56,825 nucleotides of DNA from Halorubrum kocurii JCM 14978 (GTDB taxonomy: Archaea; Halobacteriota; Halobacteria; Halobacteriales; Haloferacaceae): NCBI RefSeq assembly GCF_000337355.1, contig NZ_AOJH01000027.1:57344-114168 (forward strand), given 5' to 3'. The notes beneath the pieces were generated by a model, which saw nothing but the letters and a program-made list of their open reading frames with translations, ran no database searches and had not been told where the DNA came from. This document shows, piece after piece, positions 14,908 through 49,477 of this stretch. Position 1 is the stretch's first letter; every line of letters begins with the position of its first letter. The position numbers were made by a program, and so were the translations under genes.

Positions 14908-16431
14908 TTAGGGGTCCGGCGTCGTTCTCCGCTGGCCGCCGAGGGCGTCGGGGTAGTCCTCCTCGAGGGCCGTCGCGACGTGTTCGCCGCTGATGAGACA
15001 CATCGGCATCCCGATCCCCGGTCCCGTGAACGAGCCGACGTAGTACAGCCCGTCGAGACCCGCGCGGTGGCCGGGGCGGAGCGGGCCCGTCTGGAAGAGG
15101 GTGTGCGCGAGCCCCAGCGCCGTGCCGTGGGGGTCGCCGTAGCGCTCGGCGAAGTCGCTGACGCAGGCGGTCGTCTCCGAGACGATCCGCCCCCGGAGGT
15201 CGACTCCGGCGTGGTCGGCGAGGTCGCGCAACACCTTCTCCCGGTAGCGCTCGCGTACTTCGGGCCCGTCGTCGAGCCCGGGCGCGATGGGCACCAGCGC
15301 GACGACGGCGTGGTGGCCGTCCGGCGCGACCGCGTCGTCGGTCTTGGAGGTGACGGAGAGGTAGTACGCGGGGTCGTCCGGCCAGCGCGGCTCCTCGAAG
15401 ATGGCCTCGAAGTGGTCGGACCAGTCGGTCGGCAGGACGAGCGAGTGGTGCGCGAGGGGGTCCACGTCGCCCTCGACGCCGAGGTACAGCATGTACGCGG
15501 ACGGGGCGTACGTCCGATCGCTCCAGTAGCTCGGGTCGTGGTCGCGGTCGCTCGGGTCGAGGAGCTCCCGCTCGACGTACGCCGGGTTCGCGTTGCTGAC
15601 CACGAGGTCCGTCCGCCGCGTCCCCTCGTCGGTCGCGAGCTCGAACGCCCCGGCCCGGCCGTCGATCGACTCCACTTCGACGCCGGTCTCGATCGTGACC
15701 CCCCGCTCGCGGGCGAGTTCGGTCAGCCCGTCGACGACTCCGGCGATGCCGCCTTCGGGGTAGAAGACGTTGTTGTTCAGGTCGACGTGGCTCATGATGC
15801 TGTACAGCGCCGGCGTGTTGTACGGCGACCCGCCGAGGAACACGAGCGTGTACTCCAACAGCTGTTTGAGCTTCGGGTGGTCGACGTACCGCCCCACGTA
15901 GTCGTCCATGTTCCCGAACAGGCGGTAGCGCGGGGCCAGCGGCAGCAGGTCGGTGTCGACGTAGTCGCGCAGTCGGTCGCGCCCCTCGTACACCACGCGG
16001 TCCATCGCCAGCTCGTAGTTGCGCTCGGCGCGGTCGAGGTACTCCGCGAGGGCGTCGCCGGCGCCCACCTCGTACGACTCGAACACCTCGTGGACGTTCT
16101 CCCGATTCGGCGCGATCGTCGCGCGGTCGCCGTCTTTCCAGAACACCCGGTACTGCGGGTCGAGCCGCTCCAGCTCGAAGTAGTCCTCCGGCTCTCGGTC
16201 GAAGTGCCCGAAGAAGCGCTCGAACACGTCGGGCATCAGGTACCACGACGGGCCGGAGTCGAACCGGAACCCGTCTCGTTCGATGACGCCCGCGTGCCCC
16301 CCGACCCGGTCGTGGCGTTCGAGCAGCTCCACCTCCCCCCCGGCGTCGGCGAGGTACGCGGCCGCCGCGAGGCCGCCGAACCCCCCGCCGACGACGGTGA
16401 TAGTCTGGTCGCCGCGTCGCTGGTCCGCCAT
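14908..16431 (-). CDS. crtI: CrtI-type phytoene desaturase
   Basis: FAD-dependent carotenoid desaturase of 507 residues. The dinucleotide motif is VVGGGFGGLAAAAYLADAG (GxGxxG at 15-20), then VGGHAGVIERDGFRFDSGPS. The C-terminal CrtI signature is YYVGSFTGPGIGMPMCLISG with a second FAD contact. PEGGIAGVVDGLTELARERG is also diagnostic. It probably turns phytoene into lycopene; a role as 3,4-desaturase (CrtD) in bacterioruberin synthesis cannot be excluded. The ATG at 16431 is chosen over a TTG at 16464. It is divergent from the Brp/Blh gene, with 103 nt between. Confidence 0.88.
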   Translation of the reverse strand: MADQRRGDQTITVVGGGFGGLAAAAYLADAGGEVELLERHDRVGGHAGVIERDGFRFDSGPSWYLMPDVFERFFGHFDREPEDYFELERLDPQYRVFWKDGDRATIAPNRENVHEVFESYEVGAGDALAEYLDRAERNYELAMDRVVYEGRDRLRDYVDTDLLPLAPRYRLFGNMDDYVGRYVDHPKLKQLLEYTLVFLGGSPYNTPALYSIMSHVDLNNNVFYPEGGIAGVVDGLTELARERGVTIETGVEVESIDGRAGAFELATDEGTRRTDLVVSNANPAYVERELLDPSDRDHDPSYWSDRTYAPSAYMLYLGVEGDVDPLAHHSLVLPTDWSDHFEAIFEEPRWPDDPAYYLSVTSKTDDAVAPDGHHAVVALVPIAPGLDDGPEVRERYREKVLRDLADHAGVDLRGRIVSETTACVSDFAERYGDPHGTALGLAHTLFQTGPLRPGHRAGLDGLYYVGSFTGPGIGMPMCLISGEHVATALEEDYPDALGGQRRTTPDP

Positions 16432-16534
16432 GTCCGATCGGTATGGTCTCCCGAACCTTGTCAAGCGGTACCGTTCCCGGTGTGTGGGATCGCCCCCGGG
16501 TCGGTTTTTTCATGGGGTCCGTACGTCCCGTGAG

Positions 16535-17599
16535 ATGTCTCTGACCGTTCGGAAGCGCGTGTGGCGGTCGGTCGGCGGGGCGAGCGTCCACCCCTCGATC
16601 GGGCTCTCGCGGGCGGCGCTCGCGGTGCTCATCGTCGGGTTCGGCGCGCTCGCGCTCGCCGAGTTCACCGTCCCGATCGAGGCACAGATGATCGTCTATC
16701 TCGTGGGGATGATCGCGTTGAACCTCCCTCACGGTGGGTACGAGCACTTCGAGAACCTCCGGCGGCGACGCCCGTCGTTCCGGTGGCGCTACGTCGCCGC
16801 CTACGTGGCCGCGATCGCCGGCTTCGTCGGGCTGTTCCTGCTCGCGCCGGTCGTCGGGCTCGGACTCGCGCTCGTCGTCGCGATGGCGAAGGGCGGGATC
16901 GGCGGGGTCCGCGTCCTCGACGCGACCGTCGGGAGCGAGCACCTCCGGACGCGGCCGCAGCGGGCGCTCGCCGCCGCCGTCCGCGGCGGGGCCGTCATGC
17001 TGGTCCCGATGGCGTTCCACACCGACACGTTCTACGCGTTCAGCACGCTCATGGTCGGGCTCGTGGACGGCGGGGCGCTCGGCGGCGCCGGGGGCCGAAT
17101 CGATGCGGTCCGAACGGCGATCATCGTCGGCTACGGCGCCGCGCTCGTCGCGCACATCGCGCTGGGGTACGTCCGCGGCGGCGGGCGGTCGTGGCTCGTC
17201 GACGCCGCCGAGAGCGTCCTCCTCGCCGCGTACTTCGCGGTCGTCCCGGTGCTCGTGGCCGTCGGGCTCTACTTCCCCTTCTGGTACTCCGCCAGACAGG
17301 TCGCTCGGACGGCGACGGTCGACGCCGAGCCCGCCGGCGACGACGAGTGGGACCTCGTGGGCGGCGACTCCGTGTCCGAGGCCGCGCTGCGGGCGTGGGG
17401 ATTGATGGCGGTCGGCGCGCTCGCCACGTTCGTCGTCGTCGCCGCGCTCTACTGGGCGTTCCCGAACCCGTTCGCGGGGTCGGGGCTGCTCCCCGGCGCG
17501 GTGGCGTTCTGGAGCGTCTCGATCAGCATCATCGCGCTCCCGCACGTCGTTATCGGCGACCTACTGGACCGTGACCGGGGGATCTGGTACGTCCCGTGA
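16535..17599 (+). CDS. blh: Brp/Blh-family beta-carotene 15,15'-dioxygenase
   Basis: Integral membrane enzyme of 354 residues with about eight to ten helices. The two histidine motifs of the Brp/Blh family are present: NLPHGGYEHFENL near residue 65 and LPHVVIGDLLDR at the C-terminus; FHTDTFYAF also carries a conserved His. It cleaves beta-carotene to retinal, the chromophore of bacteriorhodopsin, halorhodopsin and sensory rhodopsins. No opsin gene lies in the window. The ATG at 16535 follows a TTTTTTC word at 16504-16511 at leaderless spacing. The frame is open further upstream, but only across the promoter. Confidence 0.85.
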   Translation: MSLTVRKRVWRSVGGASVHPSIGLSRAALAVLIVGFGALALAEFTVPIEAQMIVYLVGMIALNLPHGGYEHFENLRRRRPSFRWRYVAAYVAAIAGFVGLFLLAPVVGLGLALVVAMAKGGIGGVRVLDATVGSEHLRTRPQRALAAAVRGGAVMLVPMAFHTDTFYAFSTLMVGLVDGGALGGAGGRIDAVRTAIIVGYGAALVAHIALGYVRGGGRSWLVDAAESVLLAAYFAVVPVLVAVGLYFPFWYSARQVARTATVDAEPAGDDEWDLVGGDSVSEAALRAWGLMAVGALATFVVVAALYWAFPNPFAGSGLLPGAVAFWSVSISIIALPHVVIGDLLDRDRGIWYVP

Positions 17600-20951: not shown

Positions 20952-22364
20952 TCACGACCAGTCGCCGAGCGACGCCTGCCCGTCGCCGGTGCGCCGGTCG
21001 GTCTCCGTTTCGCCGTCCGCGTCGGCGCCGTCCGGCTCCCCGTCGACCCAGTCGGTTAGCTTTCCGCCGTCGCCGTCGGTGGCGGCCGAGCGCGGCTCGG
21101 TCCCGCGGTCGCGGCCGCCGGGCTCGTCCCCGGCGTCGCCGCTCCCGCCGCCAGCGTCGAACCCGCCGAGCGTCGCCTGGTCGCTCTCGGCGAAGTCGAG
21201 CTTCGAGACGCGCACTCCGAGCTTGCGGACCCGGTCGCCGTCGAACTCGTCGAGGAGGTCCAGCGCCACCGACTCCACGAGGTCGGGGTCGTCGACCGGG
21301 CCGGGGAGACTCCGGGCGCGGGTGTTCACCTCGTAAGGGGGCTCGACCGCCTTGATCCCGATAGTGCGGTACAGACACCCTCGCTCGCGGGCGCGGCGGG
21401 CCACGTCGGCGGCCAGCGCGCGCACCGTCTCCCGCTTCCGCTCCTCGTCGGCCGTCGCCGACAGCGACGACTCCCGCGAGAGGCTCTTGGGCAGCCCCGT
21501 GGGCGTGACCTCTCGGTCGTCCTCGCCGCGCGCCCGCCGGTACAGCTCCCGGCCGCGGTCGCCCAGCTCGTCGGCGAGCCGGTCGGGGTCGGCGGCGGCG
21601 AGGTCGCCCGCGGTCTCGATCCCCAGCTCCGCCAGCGTCCGCTCCGTCACCGGGCCGACGCCGTGGATGTCCGCGGTCGGTAGCGGCGCGAGGAAGGGCT
21701 CGACCTCGCCCGGCGGCACGACGACGAGCCCGTCCGGCTTGTCGGCGTCGCTGGCGACCTTCGCGGTCGACATGTTCGGCGCGACGCCGACGCTCGCGGG
21801 CACGCCGGCCTCGCGCTCGATGCGCTCCTTGACGTGCCGGGCGTACCCCTCCGCCAGCGTTCGGACCTCGGCGGGGCCGGCCGCGGCGCTCTCCCCGGCC
21901 GCGGCGTCCCACGCCGTGCGGTCGGTGACGTCGAGGTACGCCTCGTCGACGCTCACCTCGCGAAGCACGTCGGCGCAGTCGCGGAGGACGGCCTTCACGT
22001 CGCCCGCGACCTCTTTATAAAAGTCGAGGTCGACGGGGAGGTACCGACCCGCCTCGCCGGGGTCTGGCGCGTCCGGGTCGTCGGGGTCGGCGTTCGCCCG
22101 CCGGGGCAGCAGCTCCAGCGCCTCCGAGATCGGCATCGCGCTCTCGACGCCGAACGCGCGGGCCTCGTAGCTCGCGGTCGCGACCGCGCCGATCGTCTCG
22201 CCCGCCTCGTACCCCATCCCGACGACGAGGGGCTCACCGTCGAGCTCGGGCCGCCGCAGGCGCTCGCAGGAGGCGTAAAAGCAGTCCATGTCGACGTGGA
22301 ACACGACGCGGTCGCTCTCCGCGTCGTCGTCCGCGTCGGTCCCGGGGAGCGTTCCGCCCGCCAT
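20952..22364 (-). CDS. dinB: DNA polymerase IV (Y-family translesion polymerase)
   Basis: Error-prone polymerase that copies past lesions, 470 residues. The palm motifs are HVDMDCFYASCE (metal ligand Asp25) and SVDEAYLDVT; the helix-hairpin-helix is DIHGVGPVTERTLAELGI; the little finger follows (SLSRESSLSA). Two PCNA-interacting-like boxes are visible, QATLGGFD and the extreme C-terminus QASLGDWS. A disordered acidic region separates them. The protein is longer than the roughly 350 residues of crenarchaeal Dpo4 because of that linker and an insert near residue 95-110. The ATG at 22364 is the natural start. Confidence 0.93.
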   Translation of the reverse strand: MAGGTLPGTDADDDAESDRVVFHVDMDCFYASCERLRRPELDGEPLVVGMGYEAGETIGAVATASYEARAFGVESAMPISEALELLPRRANADPDDPDAPDPGEAGRYLPVDLDFYKEVAGDVKAVLRDCADVLREVSVDEAYLDVTDRTAWDAAAGESAAAGPAEVRTLAEGYARHVKERIEREAGVPASVGVAPNMSTAKVASDADKPDGLVVVPPGEVEPFLAPLPTADIHGVGPVTERTLAELGIETAGDLAAADPDRLADELGDRGRELYRRARGEDDREVTPTGLPKSLSRESSLSATADEERKRETVRALAADVARRARERGCLYRTIGIKAVEPPYEVNTRARSLPGPVDDPDLVESVALDLLDEFDGDRVRKLGVRVSKLDFAESDQATLGGFDAGGGSGDAGDEPGGRDRGTEPRSAATDGDGGKLTDWVDGEPDGADADGETETDRRTGDGQASLGDWS

Positions 22365-22507
22365 CGCCCGGGGCTCCGCGCCGCGCGGCCTTAAGAATCA
22401 GCCACGCGCGGCGGTAGTGGAAATCCGACGCGTCGGTGCCAAAACGTCGGCGACTGCGGCCGCCACCCCCGAGCGATACTCAGAACTGATACCCGAGCCG
22501 ACATTCG

Positions 22508-22513
22508 TTTATC
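22508..22513 (+). promoter_or_regulatory. TATA element of the LOV histidine kinase gene
   Basis: TTTATC in the context ATTCGTTTATCGGG is centred 26 nt upstream of the ATG at 22536, fitting a leaderless start. It faces away from the polymerase IV gene, and the 171-bp gap between them is shared. Confidence 0.55.
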
Positions 22514-22535: not shown

Positions 22536-24359
22536 ATGCCCGACCGGATCGACGTGTTGCACGTCGACGACGACCCGTCCGTGCTGGACCTCGCGGAGGC
22601 GTACCTCGAACGCGAGCTGGGGTCCGTCTCGGTGACGAGCGTCGCGGAGCCGTCGGCCGCGCTCGACGCGCTCGACGAAGGGGCGTTCGACTGCGTGGTC
22701 AGCGACTACGACATGCCCGGCACGGACGGGCTGGAGCTCTTCGAGTCCGTCAGCGCCGACCGCCCCCGGCTGCCGTTCATCCTCTACACCGGCAAGGGGT
22801 CAGAGGAGATCGCCAGCCGGGCGCTCAACGCGGGCGTCACCGGCTACTTCCAGAAGGGCGGTCCCGAGCAGCTCCGCCGGCTCGCGAACCGGGTCGAGCA
22901 GGCGGTCGACGAGCGCCGGACCCGCGAGATCGCCGACCGGTACTCGACGGTCATCGACGCGCTCGGGTACCCCGTGTACGTCGTCGACGAGACGGGGACG
23001 TTCGAGTTCGTCAACGAGTCGTTCGCGGCGCTGACCGGCTACGACGTCGAGGAGATAGTCGGGAGCAAGCCGGGGCTGATAAAGGGCGACGACGCGGTCA
23101 GCGAGTCCGAAGACCGGCTCGGTACCATCCTCTCCAGCACCGGTCCGGACATCCAACGGTTTCGCGTCGATATCGAGCCGAAGGAGGGCGATCCGGTCCC
23201 GTGTCGGGACCACATGGCGGCGCTGCCGTACGAGGGCGAGTCCTTCGACGGGAGCGTCGGCATCCTGCGCGACGTCTCAGACGAGGTCCAGCGGCGCGAG
23301 GAGTTACAGACGAAGACGCGGGCGCTCGACGAGGCGCCCGTCGGTATCACGATCACCGACCCGAGCCTGCCGGACAACCCGATGGTGTACGTCAACGACC
23401 GGTTCGTCGAGATGACCGGCTACGACCGCGAGGACGCCGTCGGCGTCAACTGCCGGTTCCTGCAGGGGGAGGACACCGACCCGGAGACAGTCGACCGGCT
23501 CCGGGAGGCGATCGACGCCGAGGAGCCGGCAAGCGTCGAGCTGTTGAACTACCGGAAGGACGGCGCGCCGTTCTGGAACCGCGTCAGCGTCGCGCCGATC
23601 TGCGAGGACGGGTCGGTCTCCGAGTGGGTCGGCTTCCAAGAGGACATCACGGCGTTCAAGCGGCGTGAGGCGGCGCTCGAACGCCAGAACGAGCGACTCG
23701 ACTCGTTCGCGGGCATCGTCTCGCACGACCTCCGGAACCCGCTCAACGTCGCGCAGGGGCGCGTCGATCTGGCGCGGGGGCTGGCGGACGACCCGGAGCA
23801 CCTCGACGCCGCGGCCGACGCCCTCGACCGGATCGAGTCGATCGTCGAGCACACCCTCACGCTCGCCCGCGAGGGGGAGACCGTCGGCGACCCGGAGCCG
23901 GTCTCCGTCGCCGCGGTCGCCGCCGACAGCTGGGAGACGGTCGACACCGCCTCGGCCTCGCTGTCGGTCGAGTCGGACCGCGAGATCCTCGCCGATCCGG
24001 ACCGGCTCCGCAACCTGTTCGAGAACCTCGTCCGGAACAGCGTGGAACACGGTTCCACCGGCAGTCGGGCGGAGCCCGGCGACGGCGTGGAGCGCGCCGG
24101 CGACGGCGTCCGGATCCGCGTCGGCGACCTCCCCGACGGGTTCTACCTCGAGGACGACGGGCCCGGGATCCCGGAGGCGGTCCGCGACGACCTCTTCGAA
24201 CCCGGCCGGAGCGCGGTCGACGGGAACACCGGCTTCGGGCTGGCGATCGTCCAGGAGATCGCCACCGCCCACGGGTGGACCGTCGAGGCGCTCGACGCGG
24301 CCGACGGAGGCGCGCGGTTCGAGGTCCGCGGGGTCGCTCGCCCGTCGCCGGCGGAGTAG
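22536..24359 (+). CDS. Receiver-PAS-LOV histidine kinase, putative blue-light sensor
   Basis: Soluble sensor of 607 residues. Receiver domain at about 1-125 with phospho-acceptor Asp57 (VVSDYDMPG) and DDD acidic pocket. PAS 1 lies at about 135-250. The second PAS at about 262-375 is a LOV domain: GVNCRFLQG with the flavin-adduct cysteine Cys306, NYRKDGAPFWN with Asn338 and Asn348, and Gln368 in GFQEDIT, all four flavin residues kept. A HisKA domain follows with His397 (SHDLRNPLN), then the N-box (NLFENLVRNSVEH), DDGPGIPE and GFGLAIVQE. There are no membrane segments. Light or redox control of a haloarchaeal response is inferred; no separate response regulator is adjacent. Confidence 0.88.
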   Translation: MPDRIDVLHVDDDPSVLDLAEAYLERELGSVSVTSVAEPSAALDALDEGAFDCVVSDYDMPGTDGLELFESVSADRPRLPFILYTGKGSEEIASRALNAGVTGYFQKGGPEQLRRLANRVEQAVDERRTREIADRYSTVIDALGYPVYVVDETGTFEFVNESFAALTGYDVEEIVGSKPGLIKGDDAVSESEDRLGTILSSTGPDIQRFRVDIEPKEGDPVPCRDHMAALPYEGESFDGSVGILRDVSDEVQRREELQTKTRALDEAPVGITITDPSLPDNPMVYVNDRFVEMTGYDREDAVGVNCRFLQGEDTDPETVDRLREAIDAEEPASVELLNYRKDGAPFWNRVSVAPICEDGSVSEWVGFQEDITAFKRREAALERQNERLDSFAGIVSHDLRNPLNVAQGRVDLARGLADDPEHLDAAADALDRIESIVEHTLTLAREGETVGDPEPVSVAAVAADSWETVDTASASLSVESDREILADPDRLRNLFENLVRNSVEHGSTGSRAEPGDGVERAGDGVRIRVGDLPDGFYLEDDGPGIPEAVRDDLFEPGRSAVDGNTGFGLAIVQEIATAHGWTVEALDAADGGARFEVRGVARPSPAE

Positions 24360-24451
24360 CGCTCGCCCCGGAACCCGCCGCCCCGGGCCGGAACCGGATC
24401 GATCCCCCCCGTTCGCAAACGCCTTTGGGCTCGCGGGCGAAATCGCGTCCG

Positions 24452-25765
24452 ATGGGGTTGCTCTCGGGCGTCGCCGACACCGACCGCCGAGTGATCGTGC
24501 TCGCGCTCGCCCGGATGGTCGGCGCCGCCGGCAACTCCTTTCTCATTGTCGTCCTGCCGCTGTACATCGCGAGCGACCTGGTCGACATCGAGTCGCTCCT
24601 CGAGACCTCGGTCGGCGTCGGCGCGGCGTCGGTGACGCTGACCGAGCCGCTGCTCATCGGGCTCGTCCTCTCGCTGTTCGGGTTTCTCAACAGCTTCTCA
24701 CAGCCCCTGACGGGACGGCTCTCCGACCGGATGGGCGTGCGCCGTCCCTTCGTGTTGGCCGGGATCCTCCTTCTGGGGACCGCGAGCGGGCTCTACACGG
24801 TCGCGGACGCCTACTGGCAGCTGATCGCGCTCCGCGCGGCGCAGGGGTTCGGCGCGGCGCTCATCATCCCGGCGACGGTCGCGCTGGTCAACGAGTACGC
24901 CGCGAGCGACGCCGACCGCGGCGGCAACTTCGGCGTGTACAACACCTTCCGGCTGATCGGGTTCGGGTTCGGCCCGGTCCTCGCCGGCGCCGTCGTCCAG
25001 CGCGGCCCGTACGACCTCTCCGCGGTCGGCCTCCCGGTGGTCGACGGGTTCGACGCGGCGTTCGCGGCGGCCTGCGCCGGGGCGTACCTCAGCTTCATCC
25101 TCGTCTTCTTCCTCGTGCGCGACGCCGCGGAGTCGAGCGAGGCGAGCGACGACCTCTCGATCCGCGTCCGCGGCGAGGGGCGCCTGCTCGACCCAGTGTT
25201 CGCGCTCGGGCTGGCGACGGTCGTGATGGGGATCTGCATCGCGCTGTTCGCGACGCTTCAGGCCCAGGTGAACGCCCGGCTCGACCAGCCCCCGGTGTGG
25301 TTCGGCCTCCAGTTCGCGGCGGTCACCATCGCGAACGTCCTGTTCCAGGTGCCCGTCGGGCAGGCCAGCGACCGGATCGGGCGCCGCCCGTTCCTGCTCG
25401 CCGGGTTCGCCCTGCTCGTCCCCACGACGCTCCTGCAGGGGATCGTCACTCAGTCGGTGGTGATGACGCTCGTCCGGCTGGCGCAGGGCGTCGCCGTCGC
25501 GTGCGTGTTCGCCCCCTCCCTGGCGCTCGCCGGCGACCTCGCGCGGGAGGGCGAGTCCGGCACGACGCTGTCGGTGCTCACGATGGGGTTCGGCTTCGGG
25601 GTCGCGGTCGGGCCGCTGGCGTCCGGGTGGCTCTACGCCTTCGGGTTCGTCGTCCCCTTCGTCGTCGGCGCCGGGCTCGCCGTCGTCGCGCTCGCGGCCG
25701 TCGTGACGCAGGTCGAGGAGACGCTCGAGACGGACGACGCCGGGGACGCGGCCGCGGCGGACTGA
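24452..25765 (+). CDS. Major facilitator superfamily transporter
   Basis: Membrane protein of 437 residues with about 12 helices and two homologous halves. MFS motif A is seen in both: GRLSDRMGVRRP after helix 2 and GQASDRIGRRP after helix 8. A central loop (SSEASDDLSIRV) separates the halves. Motif-level likeness is to drug/H+ antiporters and sugar exporters; the substrate cannot be given. The ATG at 24452 is chosen since the open upstream stretch overlaps the kinase gene. It is transcribed in the same direction as the kinase, 92 nt downstream. Confidence 0.88.
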   Translation: MGLLSGVADTDRRVIVLALARMVGAAGNSFLIVVLPLYIASDLVDIESLLETSVGVGAASVTLTEPLLIGLVLSLFGFLNSFSQPLTGRLSDRMGVRRPFVLAGILLLGTASGLYTVADAYWQLIALRAAQGFGAALIIPATVALVNEYAASDADRGGNFGVYNTFRLIGFGFGPVLAGAVVQRGPYDLSAVGLPVVDGFDAAFAAACAGAYLSFILVFFLVRDAAESSEASDDLSIRVRGEGRLLDPVFALGLATVVMGICIALFATLQAQVNARLDQPPVWFGLQFAAVTIANVLFQVPVGQASDRIGRRPFLLAGFALLVPTTLLQGIVTQSVVMTLVRLAQGVAVACVFAPSLALAGDLAREGESGTTLSVLTMGFGFGVAVGPLASGWLYAFGFVVPFVVGAGLAVVALAAVVTQVEETLETDDAGDAAAAD

Positions 25766-38496: not shown

Positions 38497-39243
38497 ATGA
38501 ACGCAACAGTACACGACCTGGACGGCGGGGACGCGGGCAGCGTCGAGCTGCCGGCGATCTTCGAGACCGCGTTCCGACCGGACCTCATCGGTCGGGCGGT
38601 CTCCGCCGCACAGGCTAACCGGAAACAGGCCTACGGTGCCGACGAGTTCGCCGGGCTGCGAACCCCGGCGGAGTCGTTCGGCTCCGGTCGCGGGCTCGCA
38701 CACGTCCCGCGCTCCGAGAACGTCGCCCGCCGCGTCCCGCACGCCGTGTCGGGCCGCGCCGCGCACCCGCCGAAGGCCGAGAAAGACCAGACGAAGAGCC
38801 TGAACGACAAGGAGCGACAGCTCGCCATCCGGTCGGCCATCGCGGCCACCGCCGACGCCGAGCTGGTCGCCGAGCGCGGTCACGCGTTCGACGAGGACCT
38901 CGACCTCCCGCTCATCGTGAGCGACGAGTTCGAGGACCTCGAGAAGACTCAGGAGGCCCTGGGCGTGCTCGAATCCGTCGGCGTCGACGCCGACATCGAG
39001 CGCGCCGAGGAGGGCCGCTCGGTCCGAGCCGGCCGCGGGAAGACCCGCGGTCGCAAGTACAGCCAACCGAAGTCCGTCCTCGTCGTCACCAGCGAGGAGC
39101 CGTCCCGCGCCGCCCGCAACCTTTCGGGCGTCGACGTCGCGACCGCGCGAGAGGTCAACGCGGAAGACCTCGCGCCGGGCGCGCACCCGGGCCGACTCAC
39201 GCTGTGGACCGAGAGCGCCGTCGAGGAGGTGGCCGACCGATGA
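38497..39243 (+). CDS. rpl4: Ribosomal protein L4 (uL4)
   Basis: Protein of 248 residues whose long loop lines the exit tunnel. The archaeal core is seen in ADEFAGLRTPAESFGSGRG, HVPRSENVARRVPHAVSGRAAHPPK and SVRAGRGKTRGRKYSQPKSVLVV. In bacteria and some archaea L4 also represses its own operon; no such site was recognised here. The stop overlaps the rpl23 start as ATGA. Confidence 0.97.
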   Translation: MNATVHDLDGGDAGSVELPAIFETAFRPDLIGRAVSAAQANRKQAYGADEFAGLRTPAESFGSGRGLAHVPRSENVARRVPHAVSGRAAHPPKAEKDQTKSLNDKERQLAIRSAIAATADAELVAERGHAFDEDLDLPLIVSDEFEDLEKTQEALGVLESVGVDADIERAEEGRSVRAGRGKTRGRKYSQPKSVLVVTSEEPSRAARNLSGVDVATAREVNAEDLAPGAHPGRLTLWTESAVEEVADR

Positions 39244-39494
39244 ACTCCATCATCGAGCATCCGATCGTCACCGAGCAGGCGATGAACGAGATGGACTTCA
39301 AGAACAAGCTGCTGTTCCTCGTCGACGTCGACGCGACCAAGCCCGAGGTCCGCGAGGAAGTGCAGGACCGGTACGACGTCTCCGTCGTGGACGTGAACAC
39401 GCAGGTGACCCCGCAGGGCGCGAAGAAGGCCACCGTCACGCTCTCCGAGGACGACGACGCGACCGAGATCGCATCGCGCATCGGGGTGTTCTGA
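39240..39494 (+). CDS. rpl23: Ribosomal protein L23 (uL23)
   Basis: Protein of 84 residues at the tunnel exit, the SRP docking site. It begins MNSIIEHPIVTEQAMNEMDF, followed by NKLLFLVDVDATKPEVREEV, the normal core. The ATG at 39240 overlaps the rpl4 stop; the open sequence upstream belongs to rpl4 in another frame. Confidence 0.96.
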   Translation: MNSIIEHPIVTEQAMNEMDFKNKLLFLVDVDATKPEVREEVQDRYDVSVVDVNTQVTPQGAKKATVTLSEDDDATEIASRIGVF

Positions 39495-39495
39495 G

Positions 39496-40218
39496 ATGGG
39501 ACGACGAATCCAAGGACAGCGGCGTGGACGCGGCGGCCCGACGTTCCGGGCCCCGTCCCACCGCTACAAGGCGGAACTGTCGCACAAGAAGCTCGAAGAC
39601 GTGGACACGATCACCGGCGAGATCGTCGGGATCGAACACGACCCCGCCCGCTCGGCTCCGCTCGCGGAGATCGAGTTCGAGGACGACGACCGTCGGCTCG
39701 TGCTCGCGCCGGAAGGCGTGCGCGTGGGCGAGACGATTCAGGTCGGCGTCTCCGCGGAGATCAAGCCCGGGAACACGCTCCCGCTGGCGGAGATCCCCGA
39801 GGGCGTCCCGGTCTGTAACGTCGAGAGCAACCGCGGGGACGGCGGGAAGTTCGCGCGCGCCTCCGGCGTGTCCGCGACGCTTCTCACCCACGACCGCGAC
39901 GTCGCGGTCGTCCAGCTCCCCAGCGGTGAAGTGAAGCGGCTCGACCCGCAGTGCCGCGCCACGATCGGCGTGGTCGCCGGCGGCGGTCGGACGGAGAAGC
40001 CCTTCGTCAAGGCCGGTAACAAACACCACAAGATGAAAGCGCGCGGGACCAAGTATCCGCGCGTACGCGGCGTCGCGATGAACGCCGTCGACCACCCCTT
40101 CGGCGGGGGCGGTCGCCAACACCCCGGCCAGCCGAAGTCCGTCTCGCGGGACGCCCCGCCGGGACGCAAGGTCGGTGACATCGCATCCAAGCGCACCGGA
40201 CGAGGTGGCAACAAATGA
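39496..40218 (+). CDS. rpl2: Ribosomal protein L2 (uL2)
   Basis: RNA-binding protein of 240 residues needed for peptidyl transfer. It starts [23 protein letters not shown] without the bacterial N-terminal extension. The C-terminal active-site region is [21 protein letters not shown] with the conserved His. Its end overlaps the rps19 start by 4 nt. Confidence 0.97.
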
Positions 40219-40640
40219 GTTCTGACTACCGCACCGGCCGCGAGGGCAAGGAGTTCGCCTACCGCGGTCACTCGCTCGACGAGCTGCAGGAGATGGACGT
40301 AGACGAAGTCGCGGAACTGCTCCCCGCACGCCAGCGGCGAAGCATCGTTCGCGGACTCGGAACCGAACAGCAGAAGCTGCTGGAGACGGTCCGAAGCCGC
40401 GACAAGGAGACGACGGCGGACGACCCGATCCGGACGCACCTGCGCGACATGCCGGTTCTTCCGGAGTTCGTCGGCGTCACCTTCTCCGTGTACAACGGAC
40501 ACAGCTTCGAGCGCGTGCAGGTCGAACCCGAGATGATCGGTCACTTCCTCGGCGAGTTCCACCTGACTCGAAGCACCGTCGAACACGGTCAGGCCGGCAT
40601 CGGCGCGACCCGGTCCTCGAAGTTCGTGCCCCTCAAGTAA
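40215..40640 (+). CDS. rps19: Ribosomal protein S19 (uS19)
   Basis: Head protein of the small subunit, 141 residues, with the archaeal N-terminal extension ([29 protein letters not shown]) ahead of the S19 core. The core shows [24 protein letters not shown] and [19 protein letters not shown]. It overlaps rpl2 as ATGA. Confidence 0.97.
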
Positions 40641-40643
40641 CCC

Positions 40644-41108
40644 ATGGGAATCAACTACAGCGTCGAGGCCGACCCGGAGACCACCGCCAAGGGGATGCTC
40701 CGCGACCGGCCCATCAGCGTGAAGGACAGCAAGGAGATCTCCCGGGAGATCAAAGGCGAGACGGTCGCCGACGCCGAGGAGTTCCTCCAGGAAGTCATCG
40801 ACGAGGAGACCTCGGTGCCGATGCGCCAGCACAACGCCGGCGCGGGCCACCGCTCCGACATCGACGGCTGGGACGCGGGACGGTACCCCGAGAAGGCCGC
40901 CAAGGACTTCCTGAAGCTCCTGGAGAACGTCAAGAACAACGCGGACGAACAGGGGTTCGACGGCGACGAGATGGTCATCAAACACGTCGCCCCCCACAAG
41001 GTCGGCGAACGACCGGGGCGGAACCCGCGAGCCGCGGGCGCCACCGGGTGGAACACCACCCTCGCCGACGTCGAACTCATCATCGAGGACCCGGAGGCTG
41101 ACGAATAA
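40644..41108 (+). CDS. rpl22: Ribosomal protein L22 (uL22)
   Basis: Protein of 154 residues that lines the exit tunnel with its beta-hairpin. Features are [23 protein letters not shown], the acidic-basic helix near [26 protein letters not shown], and [18 protein letters not shown]. Its stop overlaps the rps3 start by a single nt (TAATG). Confidence 0.96.
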
Positions 41109-42046
41109 TGGCTGACGAACACCAATTCATCGAGGACGGCCTGCGCCGTTCACAGATCAACGAGTTCTTCGCAGACGAGCTCGGCCGCGCCGGCTACGGC
41201 GGTATGGACGTCGCTCAGACGCCGATGGGGACGCAGATCGTCCTGAAGGCCGAAAAGCCCGGCATGGTGATCGGGAAGGGCGGGAAGAACATCCGCAAGA
41301 TCACCACCGAGCTCGAGGACCGCTTCGACATGGACGACCCGCAGATCGACGTTCAGGAGGTCGACGAGCCCGACCTGAACGCGCAGATCGTCGCGGACCG
41401 TCTCGCGAACGCCTTAGAGCGCGGCTGGTACTTCCGGAAGGCCGGTCACACGACGATCGACCGGATCATGGACGCGGGCGCGCTTGGCGCCGAGATCGTC
41501 CTGAGCGGGAAGGTCACCGGCGCGCGCTCGCGCGTCGAGAAGTTCAACCGCGGCTACATCAAGCACAACGGCGAGCCCGCGGAGGAGGTCGTCGACCACG
41601 GTCAGGGCGTCGCGGTGATGAAGCTCGGGACGATCGGCGTCAACGTGAAGATCATCCCGCCGGGCGCGAAACTCCCGGACGACTTCGACATCCGCGAGGA
41701 CGCCGAGGTCCCGGAGGTCGAGCAGGCGGCCGTCGGCGCCGACGCCGACGAGGGCGTCGAGTCGCTCCTCGAGGAGGAGCCCGAGGACGTGCCCGACGTC
41801 GGCGGCGACGAGGACGTCGAGGTCCCCGACGAGGACCCGGCAGACCTCATCGACGAGGAGGTCGTCGAAGAGGTCGTCGAGGAGACCCAGGACACGGCCA
41901 CGGAGGCGACCGACGTCGCCGCCGAGGAGCCGGTCGGCGACGCCGACGCGGACGACGTCGACGAGCTCGACGAGGAGATCGAAGAGGAGGCCGCAGACCT
42001 CGTCGCGGAGATGGAGGCTGCGGACGAAGACGAGGAGGACGAATAA
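41108..42046 (+). CDS. rps3: Ribosomal protein S3 (uS3) with long acidic tail
   Basis: mRNA-entry protein of 312 residues. The KH domain has [20 protein letters not shown]; the S3 C-domain follows with GLG-type [25 protein letters not shown] and [14 protein letters not shown]. The core ends near residue 205. The last 105 residues are almost only Asp, Glu, Val and Ala, one of the strongest acidic tails in the operon. rpl29 starts right after the stop. Confidence 0.96.
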
Positions 42047-42259
42047 ATGGCAATCCTCTACACCGACGAGATCCGCGACATGACCGCGGCCGAGCGACAG
42101 GTCGAACTCGAGGAGCTCGAGACCGAGCTGCTCAACTCGAAGGCGCAGCGGGCCGCCGGCGGCATGCCGGAGAGCCCCGGTCGCGTGAAGGAGCTGAAGA
42201 AGACGATCGCGCGGATCAAGACGATACAGGCGGAAGAAGGCGACTTCGACGACGAATAA
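42047..42259 (+). CDS. rpl29: Ribosomal protein L29 (uL29)
   Basis: Two-helix protein of 70 residues at the tunnel exit beside L23: [23 protein letters not shown] and [20 protein letters not shown]. It begins at the nt after the rps3 stop and ends 1 nt before rnp1. Confidence 0.95.
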
Positions 42260-42260
42260 G

Positions 42261-42719
42261 ATGATCTCCCCCGACACCATCGTTCGGCACGAACTCGTCG
42301 GCCTCCCGGTTCGGGTGGTCGACGCCGACAGCGACGCCCACGTGGGCATCGCCGGTCGCGTGCTGTCCGAGACGTTCGGCACCCTCGTGGTCCGGACCGA
42401 GTCGGGGGACAAACGCGTGCCCAAGTCGGGCGCGACGTTGGAGTTCGCGGTCGTCGATGTCCCGACCGTTCGCACAGATGAAGCCGCCGACGACGGCCAG
42501 TCGTCGGGGTCCGCGTCCCAACTCGGGTCGGATACTACGGGGGTCCGCCCCCGTCAGTCTGGCCCGTCCGGGTCCGCAAGCGTCGTCACCGGTGACGACG
42601 CGGATCCGGCGAGCCAACACGGCGAGTGCAAAGACGCGGTCTACGTAACGGTGGATGGCGATCGGCTGCGGTATCGACCCGCCGAACGCACCGAACAAGG
42701 TGTCACACAATGGCGATAG
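42261..42719 (+). CDS. rnp1: RNase P protein component 1 (Rpp29/POP4) with an insertion
   Basis: Protein cofactor of RNase P, Sm-like barrel, 152 residues. The barrel begins ISPDTIVRHELVGLPVRVVDA, then GIAGRVLSETFGTLVV and KRVPKSGATLEF, which match archaeal Rpp29. About 50 residues rich in Ser, Gly and Asp (roughly 72-122) separate this from the last strands YVTVDGDRLRYRPAERTEQG. Typical archaeal members have about 95-100 residues without that insert. The RNA partner is the gene at 18453. Its location in the spc-like operon is standard. rps17 overlaps its end by 10 nt. Confidence 0.9.
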   Translation: MISPDTIVRHELVGLPVRVVDADSDAHVGIAGRVLSETFGTLVVRTESGDKRVPKSGATLEFAVVDVPTVRTDEAADDGQSSGSASQLGSDTTGVRPRQSGPSGSASVVTGDDADPASQHGECKDAVYVTVDGDRLRYRPAERTEQGVTQWR

Positions 42720-43054
42720 GAATCGACGTACCCACGCCTCCGGAGCCAGACAACCCGGAGGATTACGACTACGAGAAGTGCCCGTTCTACGGGCAGCTCT
42801 CCGTCCGCGGCCAGACCCGTGAGGGAACGGTCGTGTCGACGGATATGGAAAAGACCGTCATCGTCGAGCGAGAATACGACGTGTTCGTACCGAAATACGA
42901 CCGGTACATGAAGCGTCGGTCGCGCATCCCGGCCCACGTGCCGGGCGTGCTCGACTCGCTCGAAGTCGGTGACGAAGTGAAAATCGCGGAGACGCGACCG
43001 CTCTCGAAGACGAAGTCCCACGTCGTCGTCGAGAACCTGTCGGGTGATCAGTGA
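42710..43054 (+). CDS. rps17: Ribosomal protein S17 (uS17)
   Basis: OB-fold protein of 114 residues. The archaeal N-terminal part ([21 protein letters not shown]) precedes [20 protein letters not shown] and [14 protein letters not shown], the S17 core, with [17 protein letters not shown] at the end. The ATG at 42710 lies inside the end of rnp1. It overlaps rpl14 as TGATG. Confidence 0.96.
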
Positions 43055-43452
43055 TGGAGGCGCTCAAGGCCGACGTCACGCAGGGGCTCTCGAAGGGCTC
43101 GCTCATCACGTGCGCCGACAACACCGGCGCCCGTGAGCTGAAGGTGATCTCGGTGGCCGGCTACTCCGGCACCAAGAACCGCCACCCGAAGGCAGGTATC
43201 GGTGACAAGGTGACCGTCTCGGTCACCAAAGGGACCCCGGAGATGCGGCGGCAGGTGCTGGAGGCGGTCGTCGTCCGCCAGCGCAAGCCGATCCGCCGTC
43301 CGAACGGCACGCGCGTGAAGTTCGAGGACAACGCGGCCGTCATCATCGACGACCTCGAGGAGCCGCGGGGCACGGAGATCAAAGGCCCCGTCGCCCGCGA
43401 GGTCGCCGAGCGCTTCGGGAGCATCGCCTCCACCGCGACGATGATCGTCTAA
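43054..43452 (+). CDS. rpl14: Ribosomal protein L14 (uL14)
   Basis: Subunit-interface protein of 132 residues. Core motifs: [61 protein letters not shown] and [17 protein letters not shown]. The ATG at 43054 (TGATG junction) is chosen over a GTG one codon earlier. Confidence 0.97.
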
Positions 43453-43454
43453 TC

Positions 43455-43811
43455 ATGACGAAACAGCCACGCAAACAGCGAAAACGGTCGGAGACCGCGC
43501 CGCTCCACGAGCGGCAGAACCAGGTCCGAGCCACCCTCACGGAGGATCTCCGCGAGGAGTACGGACAGCGGAACGTCCGCGTCAACGCCGGCGACACCGT
43601 CGAGGTGCTTCGCGGCGACGCGGCCGGCACGGAGGCCGAGGTCATCTCGGTCGACCTGTCCGCGGAACGGATCACCGTCGAGGACGTCACCGTCGCGAAG
43701 GCGGACGGGGAGGAGGTTCCCCGTCCCATCCCGGCGAGCAACGTCCGGGTGACCGAACTGGACCTGGAAGACGAGCGCCGGGAGGCGCGGCTCCAGGAGG
43801 ATAACGAATGA
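43455..43811 (+). CDS. rpl24: Ribosomal protein L24 (uL24)
   Basis: Assembly-initiator protein of 118 residues. Basic start [20 protein letters not shown], then the KOW motif [21 protein letters not shown] and [15 protein letters not shown], ending in the archaeal acidic C-terminus. It overlaps rps4e as ATGA. Confidence 0.96.
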
Positions 43812-44533
43812 CGCGACATCAGAAGCGACTGGCAGTACCGAACTCCTGGCCGGTCGAGCGAAAGACCGACACGTTCACCGTTAAGGCCGGCGCCGGCCCG
43901 CACGGTGAGGCGGGCGTTCCGCTCGTCGTCCTGCTGCGGGACGTGCTCGGTTACGTCGACTCGACGAAGGAGGCGCGCTACGCGCTGAACAACGACTCGG
44001 TCCTCGTCAACGGGGACGCAATTTCGGACGAGCAGCGTCCGATCGGGATGTTCGACATCCTGGCGTTCCCCGAGCGCGGGGAGTTCTTCCGCGTCTTCCC
44101 CGACGAGGGCGGTCGGCTCGCGCTGACCCCCGTCGACGAGGAGGCCGCGGGCAGCCGGCTCGGGAAGATCACGAACAAGTCCGTCGTCCCCGGCGGAGAC
44201 GTCCAGCTGACGCTCCACGACGGGACGAACGTCCTCGTTGACGCCGACGCCGAGTACGACACGAAGGACTCGATCGTCGTCGACAACGAGTCGAAGGAGG
44301 TCGTCGCCCACTTCGAGTACGAAGAGGGCGCCCTCGTCACCGCCGTCGCCGGCCAGCACGCCGGTCGAATCGGCGAGGTGGCCGACATCGACGTGACGCT
44401 CGGCTCCGGCTCGAACACGGTCTTCGTCGGCGACGACGAGGACGGCTACGAGACGGTCGAGGAGTACCTCGTCGTCATCGACGAGAACTTCACCGCCGAC
44501 GACGCGGACGAGACGGGTGATTCGGATGAGTGA
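43808..44533 (+). CDS. rps4e: Ribosomal protein S4e (eS4)
   Basis: Archaeal/eukaryotic small-subunit protein, 241 residues, absent from bacteria. N-terminus [20 protein letters not shown]4-like RNA-binding segment [22 protein letters not shown], and a KOW-type region [21 protein letters not shown]. Acidic C-terminal tail. It overlaps rpl5 by 8 nt. Confidence 0.96.
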
Positions 44534-45050
44534 ATCCGAGAGCGCGTCCCACGAGATGCGCGAACCGTACCTGGAGAAGGTCGTCGTCCACATGGGCGTC
44601 GGACAGGGCGGTGAGCCGCTCGCCGACGCCGAGGAGATCATCGAGGAGATCACGGGCCAGCAGTCGGTCCGGACCACTTCGAAGCGCACCATCGCCGAGT
44701 TCGGGATCCGCAAGGGCGACCCGATCGGCGTCAAGGTGACGCTGCGGAACGAGGACGCGCACGCGTTCCTCGAGACCGCCCTGGAACTGGCCGACGTCTC
44801 CAAGAGCCAGTTCGACGACACGGGGAACCTGAGCTTCGGGGTCGAGGACCACACCGACTTCCCGAGCCAGGAGTACGACCCGAACATCGGTATCTACGGC
44901 CTCGACGTGACGACGACGATCGTCCGTCCCGGCTACCGCGTGTCGAAGCGGGACAAGGCCACCGCCTCGATCCCGGAAAAACACCGGATGACCGCCGAGG
45001 ACGCGGCCGCGTTCCTCGAAACGAACTTCGACGTTGAGGTAACGGAATGA
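44526..45050 (+). CDS. rpl5: Ribosomal protein L5 (uL5)
   Basis: 5S-rRNA-binding protein of 174 residues. Features: [68 protein letters not shown]. The start is the ATG at 44526, just inside the end of rps4e; a GTG at 44517 would add three residues. Overlaps rps14 as ATGA. Confidence 0.96.
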
Positions 45051-45220
45051 GCGAAGCGAACAACGACACGGGCGAGCACGCGTCGAAACGCACCGACTCC
45101 CGGCACACGTGCCGGCGGTGCGACCGCGAGCAGGGGCTCGTCGGCAAGTACGACATCAACCTCTGCCGGCAGTGTTTCCGCGAGGTCGCCCGAGACATGG
45201 GATTCGAGAAGTACAGCTGA
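45047..45220 (+). CDS. rps14: Ribosomal protein S14, zinc-binding type (uS14)
   Basis: Short gene of 57 residues. It begins at the ATG that overlaps the rpl5 stop (ATGA, 45047-45050) and ends with TGA at 45218-45220. The translation contains [20 protein letters not shown] and CRQC, giving the four-cysteine zinc site Cx2C...Cx2C of archaeal S14, and ends [13 protein letters not shown] as in other archaea. Its position between rpl5 and rps8 is the standard one. Confidence 0.96.
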
Positions 45221-45222
45221 TC

Positions 45223-45615
45223 ATGACGGGAAACGATCCATTCACCAACGCGCTGGCCGGCATGGACAACGCCGAGAGCGTTGGCCACCTGTCGTACACG
45301 GTTGAGCCCGCCTCCAACATCATCGGCTCCGTCCTCGAGGTCCTCTACGACCGCGGGTACGTCGACGGCTTCGAGTACGTCGACGACGGGAAAGCCGGGA
45401 AGTTCGAGGTCGAACTGAAAGGTGCCATCAACGAGTGTGGCGCCGTCAAGCCCCGCTACTCCGCGGGCGCTGACGAGTTCGAGAAGTGGGAGAAGCGATA
45501 CCTCCCCGCCCGTGACTACGGGACGCTCATCGTCACGACGAGCCACGGCGTCATGAGCCACTACGAGGCCCGCGAAGAGGGCATCGGCGGCCAAGTGATC
45601 GCATACGTCTACTAA
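45223..45615 (+). CDS. rps8: Ribosomal protein S8 (uS8)
   Basis: Platform protein of 130 residues. MTGNDPFTNALAGMDNAESV is the archaeal start (equivalent to D-PLANALS), and GTLIVTTSHGVMSHYEAREEG is the S8 rRNA-binding end. The ATG at 45223 lies 2 nt after the rps14 stop; the frame open upstream is not used. Confidence 0.97.
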   Translation: MTGNDPFTNALAGMDNAESVGHLSYTVEPASNIIGSVLEVLYDRGYVDGFEYVDDGKAGKFEVELKGAINECGAVKPRYSAGADEFEKWEKRYLPARDYGTLIVTTSHGVMSHYEAREEGIGGQVIAYVY

Positions 45616-45617
45616 CA

Positions 45618-46151
45618 ATGAACAGAGTCGAAATCGACATTCCGGACGACGTCTCCGCCGAGACCGACCACCTCGAACTCACCGTCGAGGGTCCCAACGG
45701 GAGCGTTACGCGACGCCTCTGGTACCCCGACGTCGAGGTCACGGTCGAGGACGGTGTCGTCGCGATCGCCTCCGAGAACGAGGACGCGAAGACGAACGCC
45801 ACGGTCGGCACCTTCGAGAGCCACGTCGCCAACATGATCCACGGCGTCACCGACGGATGGGAGTACACGATGGAAGTGTACTACGCCCACTTCCCGATGC
45901 AGGTGACCGTGGAGGGCGACGAGGTCGTCATCGAGAACTTCCTCGGCGAGCGAGCACAGCGACGCACCCCGATCCGCGGGGACACGGACGTACAGATCGA
46001 CGGCGAGACGGTACGGCTTACGGGCTCCGACAAGGAGGCCGTCGGGCAGACCGCCGCCGACATCGAACAGCTGACGAAGGTGACCGACAAGGACACGCGC
46101 GTCTTCCAGGACGGCGTGTACATCGTCGAGAAGCCCACCGGAGGTGCCTAA
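45618..46151 (+). CDS. rpl6: Ribosomal protein L6 (uL6)
   Basis: Protein of 177 residues with two similar domains near the sarcin-ricin loop. Features: EIDIPDDVSAETDHLELTVE, then HVANMIHGVTDGWEYTMEVYY and FPMQVTVEGDEVVIENFLGE, ending DTRVFQDGVYIVEKP. It is 3 nt from rpl32e. Confidence 0.97.
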   Translation: MNRVEIDIPDDVSAETDHLELTVEGPNGSVTRRLWYPDVEVTVEDGVVAIASENEDAKTNATVGTFESHVANMIHGVTDGWEYTMEVYYAHFPMQVTVEGDEVVIENFLGERAQRRTPIRGDTDVQIDGETVRLTGSDKEAVGQTAADIEQLTKVTDKDTRVFQDGVYIVEKPTGGA

Positions 46152-46154
46152 CCA

Positions 46155-46865
46155 ATGGCCGAAGAACTGGAAGACATCAGCGGTGTCGGTCCCTCGAAGG
46201 CGGACGCCCTTCGCGAGGCCGGCTACGAGACGGTCGAGGACGTGAAGGCCGCCTCCCAGTCTGAGCTCTCCGAGGTCGACGGCGTCGGCAACGCGCTCGC
46301 AGCGCGGATCAAGGCCGACGTTGGCGGGCTGGAGGTCGACGAGGAGGCGGACGCGGAGATCGAAGACGAGACGGACGAGGAGGAGGAGGCCGACGAGGCC
46401 GACGCCGACGAGGACGTCGAGACGGAGCTTCGCCCCCGCGGTCACGCCGACAAGACGCCGGAACTGGACGACGAGACTGCTCGCGCGCTCGCACAGAAGC
46501 ACCGCGAGGGGAAACCGCAGTTCAACCGGCAGGACTACCACAAGAAGAAGCGGATCCCGACGTCGTGGCGCAAGCCGCGCGGCGGGCTCTCCAAGCAGCG
46601 CCGCCGCATGAAGGCGAAGGGCCCTGTCGTCGAGGCGGGGTTCCGGTCGCCCAAGGCGTCGCGCGACCTACACCCGAGCGGCTTCGAGGAGGTCCGCGTG
46701 CACAACACGGACGACCTCGAGGGCGTCGACGGCGACACGCAGGCGGTGCGCATCGCCTCGAAGGTCGGCGGACGCAAGCGCGAACTGATCGAAGACGAGG
46801 CGGAGGAGCGCGAGATCCGCGTGCTGAACCCGACCTACGTCGAAGTGGAGGTCGACGATGAGTGA
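46155..46865 (+). CDS. rpl32e: Ribosomal protein L32e (eL32) with N-terminal HhH extension
   Basis: The L32e core occupies about residues 115-236: [41 protein letters not shown] and [19 protein letters not shown]. Ahead of it is a haloarchaeal extension with helix-hairpin-helix-like repeats ([34 protein letters not shown]) and an acidic stretch. Similar extensions occur in other Halobacteria. It overlaps rpl19e by 8 nt. Confidence 0.95.
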
Positions 46866-47319
46866 CCTGAAGGCGCAGAAACGGCTCGCAGCGGACGAGC
46901 TCGACGTCGGCAAGGGCCGCGTCTGGCTCGACCCCGAGGCACAGGAAGAGATCGAGGACGCCATCACGCGAGAGGACGTCCGCGAGCTCATCGAACAGGG
47001 CACCATCCGCGCGAAGGACGCGAAGACGAACTCCCGCGGTCGGGCCCGCGAGCGCGCGGAAAAGCGCTCGTACGGTCATCAGTCGGGCGCCGGTACCCGG
47101 AAGGGGAAGTCCGGCGCGCGACAGAACACGAAGGACGACTGGAAGGCGCGGATCCGCGCACAGCGCGCCCGCCTGAAGGAGCTTCGAGACGAGGAGGACG
47201 TACTCGACGCCAGCGAGTACCGCACGCTCTACAACAAGGCGAGCGGCGGCGACTTCGAGGACGTCGCGCGGCTGGAGGCGTACATCCAGACCCAGTACGG
47301 TTACGAGGTGACGGACTAA
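46858..47319 (+). CDS. rpl19e: Ribosomal protein L19e (eL19)
   Basis: Archaeal/eukaryotic protein of 153 residues. [22 protein letters not shown] and [20 protein letters not shown] plus [22 protein letters not shown] are the family core. The ATG lies 8 nt before the end of rpl32e; the stop overlaps the rpl18 start as TAATG. Confidence 0.96.
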
Positions 47320-49474: not shown

Positions 49475-49477
49475 CCA

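Follow-up and report, generated by a model that had tools for sequence, protein, structure and literature searches.

We conclude that the gene at positions 22536..24359 (+) of the window (the whole stretch of 56,825 nucleotides from Halorubrum kocurii JCM 14978 that was analysed) likely encodes a cytoplasmic histidine kinase that is dimeric and regulated by blue light, and whose output would pass through an unlinked response regulator. A kinase/phosphatase controlled by blue light is probably the best reading of the enzyme's activity. The gene is not a chance open reading frame: it is kept in 45 of 52 genomes of the genus, and the median dN/dS, computed on 150 random pairs of the 43 intact orthologs, is 0.26-0.34 in all five domains.

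The open reading frame starts with ATG and encodes 607 amino acids, arranged as REC-PAS-LOV-HisKA-HATPase according to Pfam and the orthologs; its GC contents at the three codon positions (0.73/0.44/0.95) fit a coding frame in DNA of 70% GC. The N-terminal receiver domain (aa 7-113; 22554..22874) matches Pfam Response_reg at 6e-21 and is conserved among orthologs, which bears out the receiver that the initial annotation had placed in front of the LOV kinase. It has the full set that marks this layout, the acidic pair D11/D12, the candidate phospho-acceptor D57, T85 and K107; D11, D12 and D57 are found in 43/43 orthologs, and T85 and K107 are likewise invariant in the conservation string. Between Response_reg and HisKA, Pfam places PAS stretches at 135-179 and 262-376. 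Pfam and conservation assign the first to a domain without a LOV motif, PAS1 (aa 135-255; 22938..23300), which the initial annotation omitted, as it did the flavin-pocket residue Trp364 and the dinB gene, which is divergent and starts 171 bp upstream. A conserved stretch, C-R-D-H-M-A-x-L-P-Y, lies at aa 223-232 of PAS1. The second belongs to the LOV domain (aa 263-375; 23322..23660), which is backed by Pfam, by solved relatives and by a model with a pLDDT of 91-96 over most of its length. HisKA (aa 389-447; 23700..23876) carries His397 in SHDLRNP, and HATPase_c (aa 487-597; 23994..24326) carries the boxes DDGPGIP and GFGLAIV, each delimited by Pfam, motif and conservation, so that the phospho-acceptor His and the N and G boxes of a HisKA-type kinase are all present. 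By its motif, H-D-L-R-N around His397 is of the putative kinase/phosphatase type. All these features lie on the forward strand. As first annotated, the protein has no membrane segment, the highest mean hydropathy over 19 residues being 0.96, and its composition is acidic (128 D+E versus 57 K+R).

The AF2 model has a mean pLDDT of 81 and a pTM of 0.38; because the pTM is low, the placement of the domains is untrustworthy, while the local LOV fold can be trusted. The model predicts an unbroken helix (aa 372-415; 23649..23780, +) that runs from the LOV domain into the phospho-accepting helix and contains His397, and further helices at 110-143 and 248-265 between the modules. In Foldseek, 1n9l, 9vf7, 2pr5 and 6ph2 align with the LOV part at TMt 0.81-0.93. 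The best solved relatives of the LOV part are YtvA (2pr5, 2mwg) and the YtvA-FixL chimera YF1 (4gcz, E 1e-44). With the AF2 model as query, YF1 4gcz and other LOV kinases, including SB2F1 (8a3u) and EL346 (4r3a), come out on top.

The LOV domain has the GxNCRFLQ motif, the Asn/Asn/Gln set and the PAS/LOV fold, and the residues named initially, Cys306 in GVNCRFLQG (303-311), Asn338 and Asn348 in NYRKDGAPFWN (338-348) and Gln368 in GFQEDIT (366-372), lie at the positions given for them. Conservation was counted on 43 of the 45 orthologs from the genus, leaving out L060, interrupted by an in-frame stop after 105 aa, and L057, whose frame is disturbed. Across these 43 proteins the candidate adduct-forming Cys306 (codon 23451..23453, +), Gln368, Asn305, Leu309, Gln310, Gly366 and Trp364 (codon 23625..23627, +) are invariant, as are Asp57, His397 and the glycines of the ATP boxes. 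Asn338, Asn348 and Arg307 each have one exception (N338H and R307L in L081, N348S in L072), and L052 has F308L. The eight flavin-site positions together show 3 variants, whereas a single LOV position has 5.46 on average; when eight LOV positions were drawn at random, 604 of 100000 sets did as well. The five proteins of a second genus also keep C306, N338, N348, Q368 and W364 (5/5), one of them (L083) deviating by N305D and R307L. Judged from these alignments, the flavin site is complete and selectively maintained above random LOV positions. In the L081 ortholog flavin sensing may be in the course of being lost; its genome (G044) has no match to the strict Cys LOV pattern.

Long orthologs with 71-88% identity occur in 45 of the 52 genomes of the genus, that of H. 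kocurii included, and the kinase is found at named loci of Halorubrum halophilum, lipolyticum, cibi, coriense, californiense and another Halorubrum. At E 1e-150, matches occur in 50 of 170 genomes of the family and in 2 of its 28 genera, the second genus contributing five at 61-62% identity. Halolamina, Salinadaptatus, Halovenus and Halogeometricum have kinases that share this layout at no more than 41-45% identity, and Pfam confirmed the receiver, the PAS domains and the kinase in two of these four genera. The gene is absent from 7 of the 52 genus genomes (G004, G017, G029, G032, G040, G041, G043). Remnants remain in place in three of them, covering aa 1-47 in G004, aa 3-53 and 497-603 in G043 and aa 521-600 in G032; in G017 and G029 there is no remnant, and the gap between dinB and the MFS gene is about 150-200 bp. 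In L060 (G016) LOV motifs persist behind the stop; the breaks in L060 and in L057 (G046, two pieces) may each reflect either an assembly error or decay. The contig that bears the gene is 167 kb long, in a genome of 3.6 Mb, and at 39204-50956 the window holds a ribosomal protein cluster that ends in a SecY-like gene, as recognised by eye from the ORF sequences; the kinase is on a core chromosomal contig. A plasmid search returned partial matches only (8 records, 72.8-87.1% identity). The kinase is a core gene of Halorubrum, widely kept but, since seven genomes do without it, dispensable.

The proposed mechanism is modelled on YF1-type systems, from which the adduct, the turn of the Gln, the signalling through a helix and the kinase/phosphatase switch are taken (PMC6798134). 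FMN would be seated in the LOV domain, blue light would produce an adduct between Cys306 and the flavin C4a, and Gln368 would turn. For ALovD-1 of Halonotius, a canonical haloarchaeal LOV domain, PMC12202551 reports that FMN is bound and that the 390-nm state forms at salt concentrations of up to 3 M. The signal would then travel along the predicted helix 372-415 to the phospho-accepting helix and shift how far the enzyme autophosphorylates at His397 or acts as a phosphatase. In 47 of 50 sequences Gln368 and His397 are spaced by 29; the script did not match the remaining three. Compared with YF1, the linker lacks 9 residues (+5 mod 7), and the rule given in PMC6798134 for the sign of the light response refers to 7n and 7n+1; since +5 falls outside this rule, linker length gives no prediction of the sign here, and we abandoned this use of it. 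The receiver may take the phosphate in cis at Asp57, or may gate the enzyme once phosphorylated by another kinase; for LvrB, switching of the kinase by a preceding receiver is reported (PMC13269768). Light would in this way be combined with a second input through the receiver, and PAS1 could provide a third. Median identities to the window protein are 77% for the receiver, 79% for PAS1 and 81% for LOV, and 54 of 121 positions are invariant in PAS1 versus 42 of 113 in LOV among the 43 orthologs. By these measures PAS1 is conserved no less than LOV, and it therefore probably has a separate input. The output would be an unlinked response regulator and not the adjacent pigment genes. A scan of the flanking genes showed no response regulator gene. 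At the two of five second-genus loci for which genes were called, the kinase adjoins a divergent set made up of a 4TM-type kinase, a stand-alone receiver and a REC kinase. We considered this stand-alone receiver as a partner in Halorubrum and rejected it: of seven genus genomes searched at E 1e-20, six, that of H. kocurii among them, gave no match to it, and the seventh, G036, gave two.

The flavin pocket differs from that of well-known LOV proteins at the position four residues before the conserved Gln. The kinase has Trp364 there and so departs from the Phe that is usual in bacteria and eukaryotes and that is found in YtvA and in the LOV domain of Meiothermus. PMC12202551 describes its alignment position 116, which we equate with kinase position 364 through the other numbers in that paper, as contacting the isoalloxazine ring, as Phe in published LOVs outside the archaea, and as Trp or Tyr in most archaeal LOVs from Lake Diamante. 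We surveyed 83 LOV-like stretches at 80 loci of named genomes. Among 65 haloarchaeal stretches with both Cys and Gln, position 364 is Tyr in 30, Phe in 26, Trp in 8 and His in 1; this tally leaves out the 10 of 75 archaeal stretches lacking Cys306 or Gln368, among them L119 (Trp364, His368). All eight bacterial stretches in the survey have Phe, and six of the eight haloarchaeal stretches with Trp364 are orthologs of this kinase. A DNA pattern written to find Cys LOVs that carry Trp364 matched 64 of 391 haloarchaeal genomes and gave 0 control matches. Of 46 genomes drawn from the genus, 42 contain it, always at the kinase gene, as do 22 of the 345 others; the pattern undercounts, because AAC is required for Asn305. 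In these surveys, then, Trp364 is a minority state in haloarchaea. Because position 364 is variable, the membership of the domain in the LOV family does not depend on the Trp. In the same genome, the other two Cys LOVs have Phe and Tyr at this position, and both Pro LOVs have Tyr.

Trp364 is a pocket residue of a kind able to quench flavins. It is unlikely, though conceivable, that in LOV domains of this clade electron transfer from Trp364 competes with formation of the Cys306 adduct. A related idea, a LOV-fold flavin sensor working mainly by electron transfer in which Trp364 competes with Cys306, light or cellular redox yields a semiquinone with little adduct, and the kinase reads the redox state or only very bright light, we also consider unlikely. 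It would explain why Trp364 is invariant, also in 5/5 proteins of the second genus, where YtvA, Meiothermus and all eight bacterial loci have Phe, and PMC12202551 calls Trp or Tyr at this position strong deactivators. In BAT LOV* of Halorubrum, a Trp near the flavin is reported to quench it and its removal to speed photoreduction, and the P188C variant, in which the Cys is restored, still formed no adduct (PMC4682037). The quenching Trp of BAT LOV* maps to kinase position 290, however, and this residue is Phe in the kinase. An invariant Cys306 would not be needed for pure redox sensing, and Tyr364 together with a retained Cys is common in haloarchaea (30/65). We take F41 of CrLOV1 to align with the same position 290, counting from its Cys57. 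The CrLOV1-F41Y variant is reported to favour photoreduction despite the presence of the Cys (PMC5645311), whereas ALovD-1, with Tyr at the equivalent of 290, forms the 390-nm state with a yield of about 0.49 (PMC12202551); since ALovD-1 still reacts, aromatic pockets can be tolerated. The initial annotation took the four residues as marking a photoactive LOV domain. This stands in so far as all four are present and selectively maintained, but they are necessary and not sufficient, as BAT LOV* and Trp364 illustrate: in view of BAT LOV* P188C and CrLOV1-F41Y, photoactivity is not proved by the four residues alone. Finally, the LOV domain might be a non-photoactive relic that acts as a dimerising spacer while the receiver or PAS1 does the signalling. 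The similar conservation of receiver, PAS1 and LOV would allow this, and in LvrB a front receiver alone can switch the kinase (PMC13269768); yet the flavin-site residues vary less than the rest of the LOV positions and are kept in the second genus, which makes a relic very unlikely. The blue-light-regulated kinase remains our preferred reading.

The surroundings of the gene bear on what it may control. The alignment of 45 upstream regions has a conserved TATA-like CGTTTAT (22506..22512, +) whose centre lies about 27 bp ahead of the kinase ATG, and a conserved CTTAAG (22390-22395) at likewise about 27 bp from the ATG of the divergent dinB gene (DNA polymerase IV; 20952..22364, -). By what is generally known of haloarchaea, these upstream elements may be promoters of leaderless transcripts. 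The codirectional MFS transporter gene downstream (24452..25765, +) has a conserved upstream block of its own (24390-24426), which leaves a kinase-MFS operon unsupported. The middle of the 171-bp spacer between dinB and the kinase is unconserved across the 45 regions, so that a shared dinB/kinase operator is not supported and was ruled against. A divergent dinB adjoins the kinase in 38 of 45 genus loci, the MFS gene lies directly downstream in 42, and both are present in 36, as well as in 6/6 of the named Halorubrum loci. This constancy could mean that the kinase targets dinB or the MFS gene and gives a light warning before sunlight damage. However, the spacer shows no conserved shared operator, the dinB-MFS order survives loss of the kinase (G004, G017, G029, G043), the kinase of the second genus has neither gene beside it (5/5), and old gene order alone suffices as an explanation; we regard these targets as quite unlikely. 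The initial annotation had proposed light control of the pigment genes of the window, a crtI/CrtD-type desaturase (14908-16431, -) and a Brp/Blh beta-carotene dioxygenase (16283-17599, +), which form an accessory pair 5 kb upstream. Among the 42 loci with at least 6.5 kb of upstream sequence, the pair is near the kinase in two, the window and L066. A core-type crtI with 60-62% identity was found in 8/8 genomes searched, and a 93% copy solely in G037, the source of L066. Since the core crtI lies elsewhere in all eight, the crtI of the window is an accessory second copy; the kinase, dinB and the MFS gene also have separate conserved promoter-like blocks. Gene order over 45 loci and the search for crtI copies led us to reject the pigment link, and control of carotenoid or retinal synthesis by this kinase is highly improbable. 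The pair sits between the genes for nicotinate phosphoribosyltransferase and AMMECR1, and among 16 loci that show both flanking genes it is present in the window and L066 only. The coordinates noted for this second desaturase and its partner are window positions 14908-17599 and G000:C48:35030-36481.

If light does control pigment in H. kocurii, two Bat-type proteins of the same genome are better candidates, because they combine LOV and DNA-binding domains. In Halobacterium, Bat mediates the control of bacterio-opsin and pigment genes by light and oxygen, which had lent the pigment proposal some plausibility; PMC4844311 also links Bat to this control in Halobacterium. The strict motif finds five LOV domains in the genome, three with Cys and two with Pro. 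Besides the kinase of the window, they belong to a REC-PAS-LOV-PAS kinase on contig C86, to a LOV-GAF-BAT-HTH_10 protein with a complete Cys LOV on C68 (L198:1257-2924(-)), to a REC-LOV*-GAF-BAT-HTH_10 protein, Bat, with Pro for Cys on C76 (L196:407-2413(-)), and to a multi-PAS kinase on C61 with Pro for Cys and Ala for Asn348. The C68 protein is a candidate one-component blue-light transcription factor, and together with the Cys-less Bat it fits pigment control better than the kinase, which has neither BAT (PF15915) nor HTH_10 (PF04967), both present in these two paralogs. The C76 Bat has a Trp at the position that quenches the flavin in Halorubrum BAT LOV*. We considered an expansion of LOV domains in this genome and found it unremarkable, the genus ranging from 0 to 4 Cys motifs per genome.

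The kinase group joins the archaeal LOV kinases already catalogued, its unusual point being the pocket Trp364. PMC4844311, of 2014, lists 167 archaeal LOV proteins, including LOV kinases with RR, GAF and PAS units, and PMC12202551 describes 28 from Lake Diamante. The latter presents its canonical archaeal LOV domain, in 2025 and as an isolated domain, as the first to be characterised, which agrees with the earlier remark that few haloarchaeal LOVs have been tested. As in the archaeal LOV kinases of these reports, REC, PAS or GAF units precede a Cys LOV, the kinase follows, and the composition is that of an acidic halophile protein. The Group A marks E292, D342 and FWN-R are kept, mapped through the C46/C57 numbering offset; points of difference are Trp364, and Leu instead of Arg at position 88 of PMC12202551. 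The LOV domain is about 47% identical to that of YtvA (Foldseek, 2pr5) with equal flavin-site residues; the output of YtvA is a STAS domain. Against NCBIfam NF052652 (YtvA family) the kinase scores 174.8 bits, below the cut-off of 250 and over the LOV part only. With YF1 it shares the succession of LOV, helix and FixL-type kinase, but YF1 has the longer linker and Phe in place of Trp364. The soluble blue-light LOV kinases Brucella LOV-HK and EL346 are structural matches, both being HWE-type kinases; against NF052306 (BluLightHisKinLov, LOV-HK) the score of 153.7 bits is below the cut-off of 450. BAT LOV* (PMC4682037) shares the haloarchaeal LOV fold behind a receiver, and the Bat on C76 is of the same kind; it differs from the kinase in Pro for Cys, Trp at 290 and a GAF-BAT-HTH_10 output. 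LvrB (Foldseek match 8vc9) also has a receiver before the kinase core and offers a mechanistic parallel; the abstract of PMC13269768 mentions no LOV for it. Literature searches combining LOV with haloarchaea or Halorubrum, and blue light with Haloferax volcanii histidine kinase, showed no study of an ortholog of this kinase among the titles and abstract openings covered, nor did we find spectroscopy or a kinase assay of it, and a search with Bat and LOV terms gave no match. None of the haloarchaeal LOV kinases known to us has an established output.

For the genus, the kinase is a widely kept Halorubrum gene at a stable locus, and the strains that lost it naturally are available for comparison. 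If electron transfer from Trp364 does compete with adduct formation, the competition might lower light sensitivity to a level suited to full-sun brines, or it might integrate blue light with redox state, and the result would be passed to the kinase part, for which the protein's receiver would supply a phospho-signal as well. Trp364 and its Phe and Tyr counterparts in the paralogs of one genome form a natural series in which adduct formation and electron transfer could be compared at molar salt.
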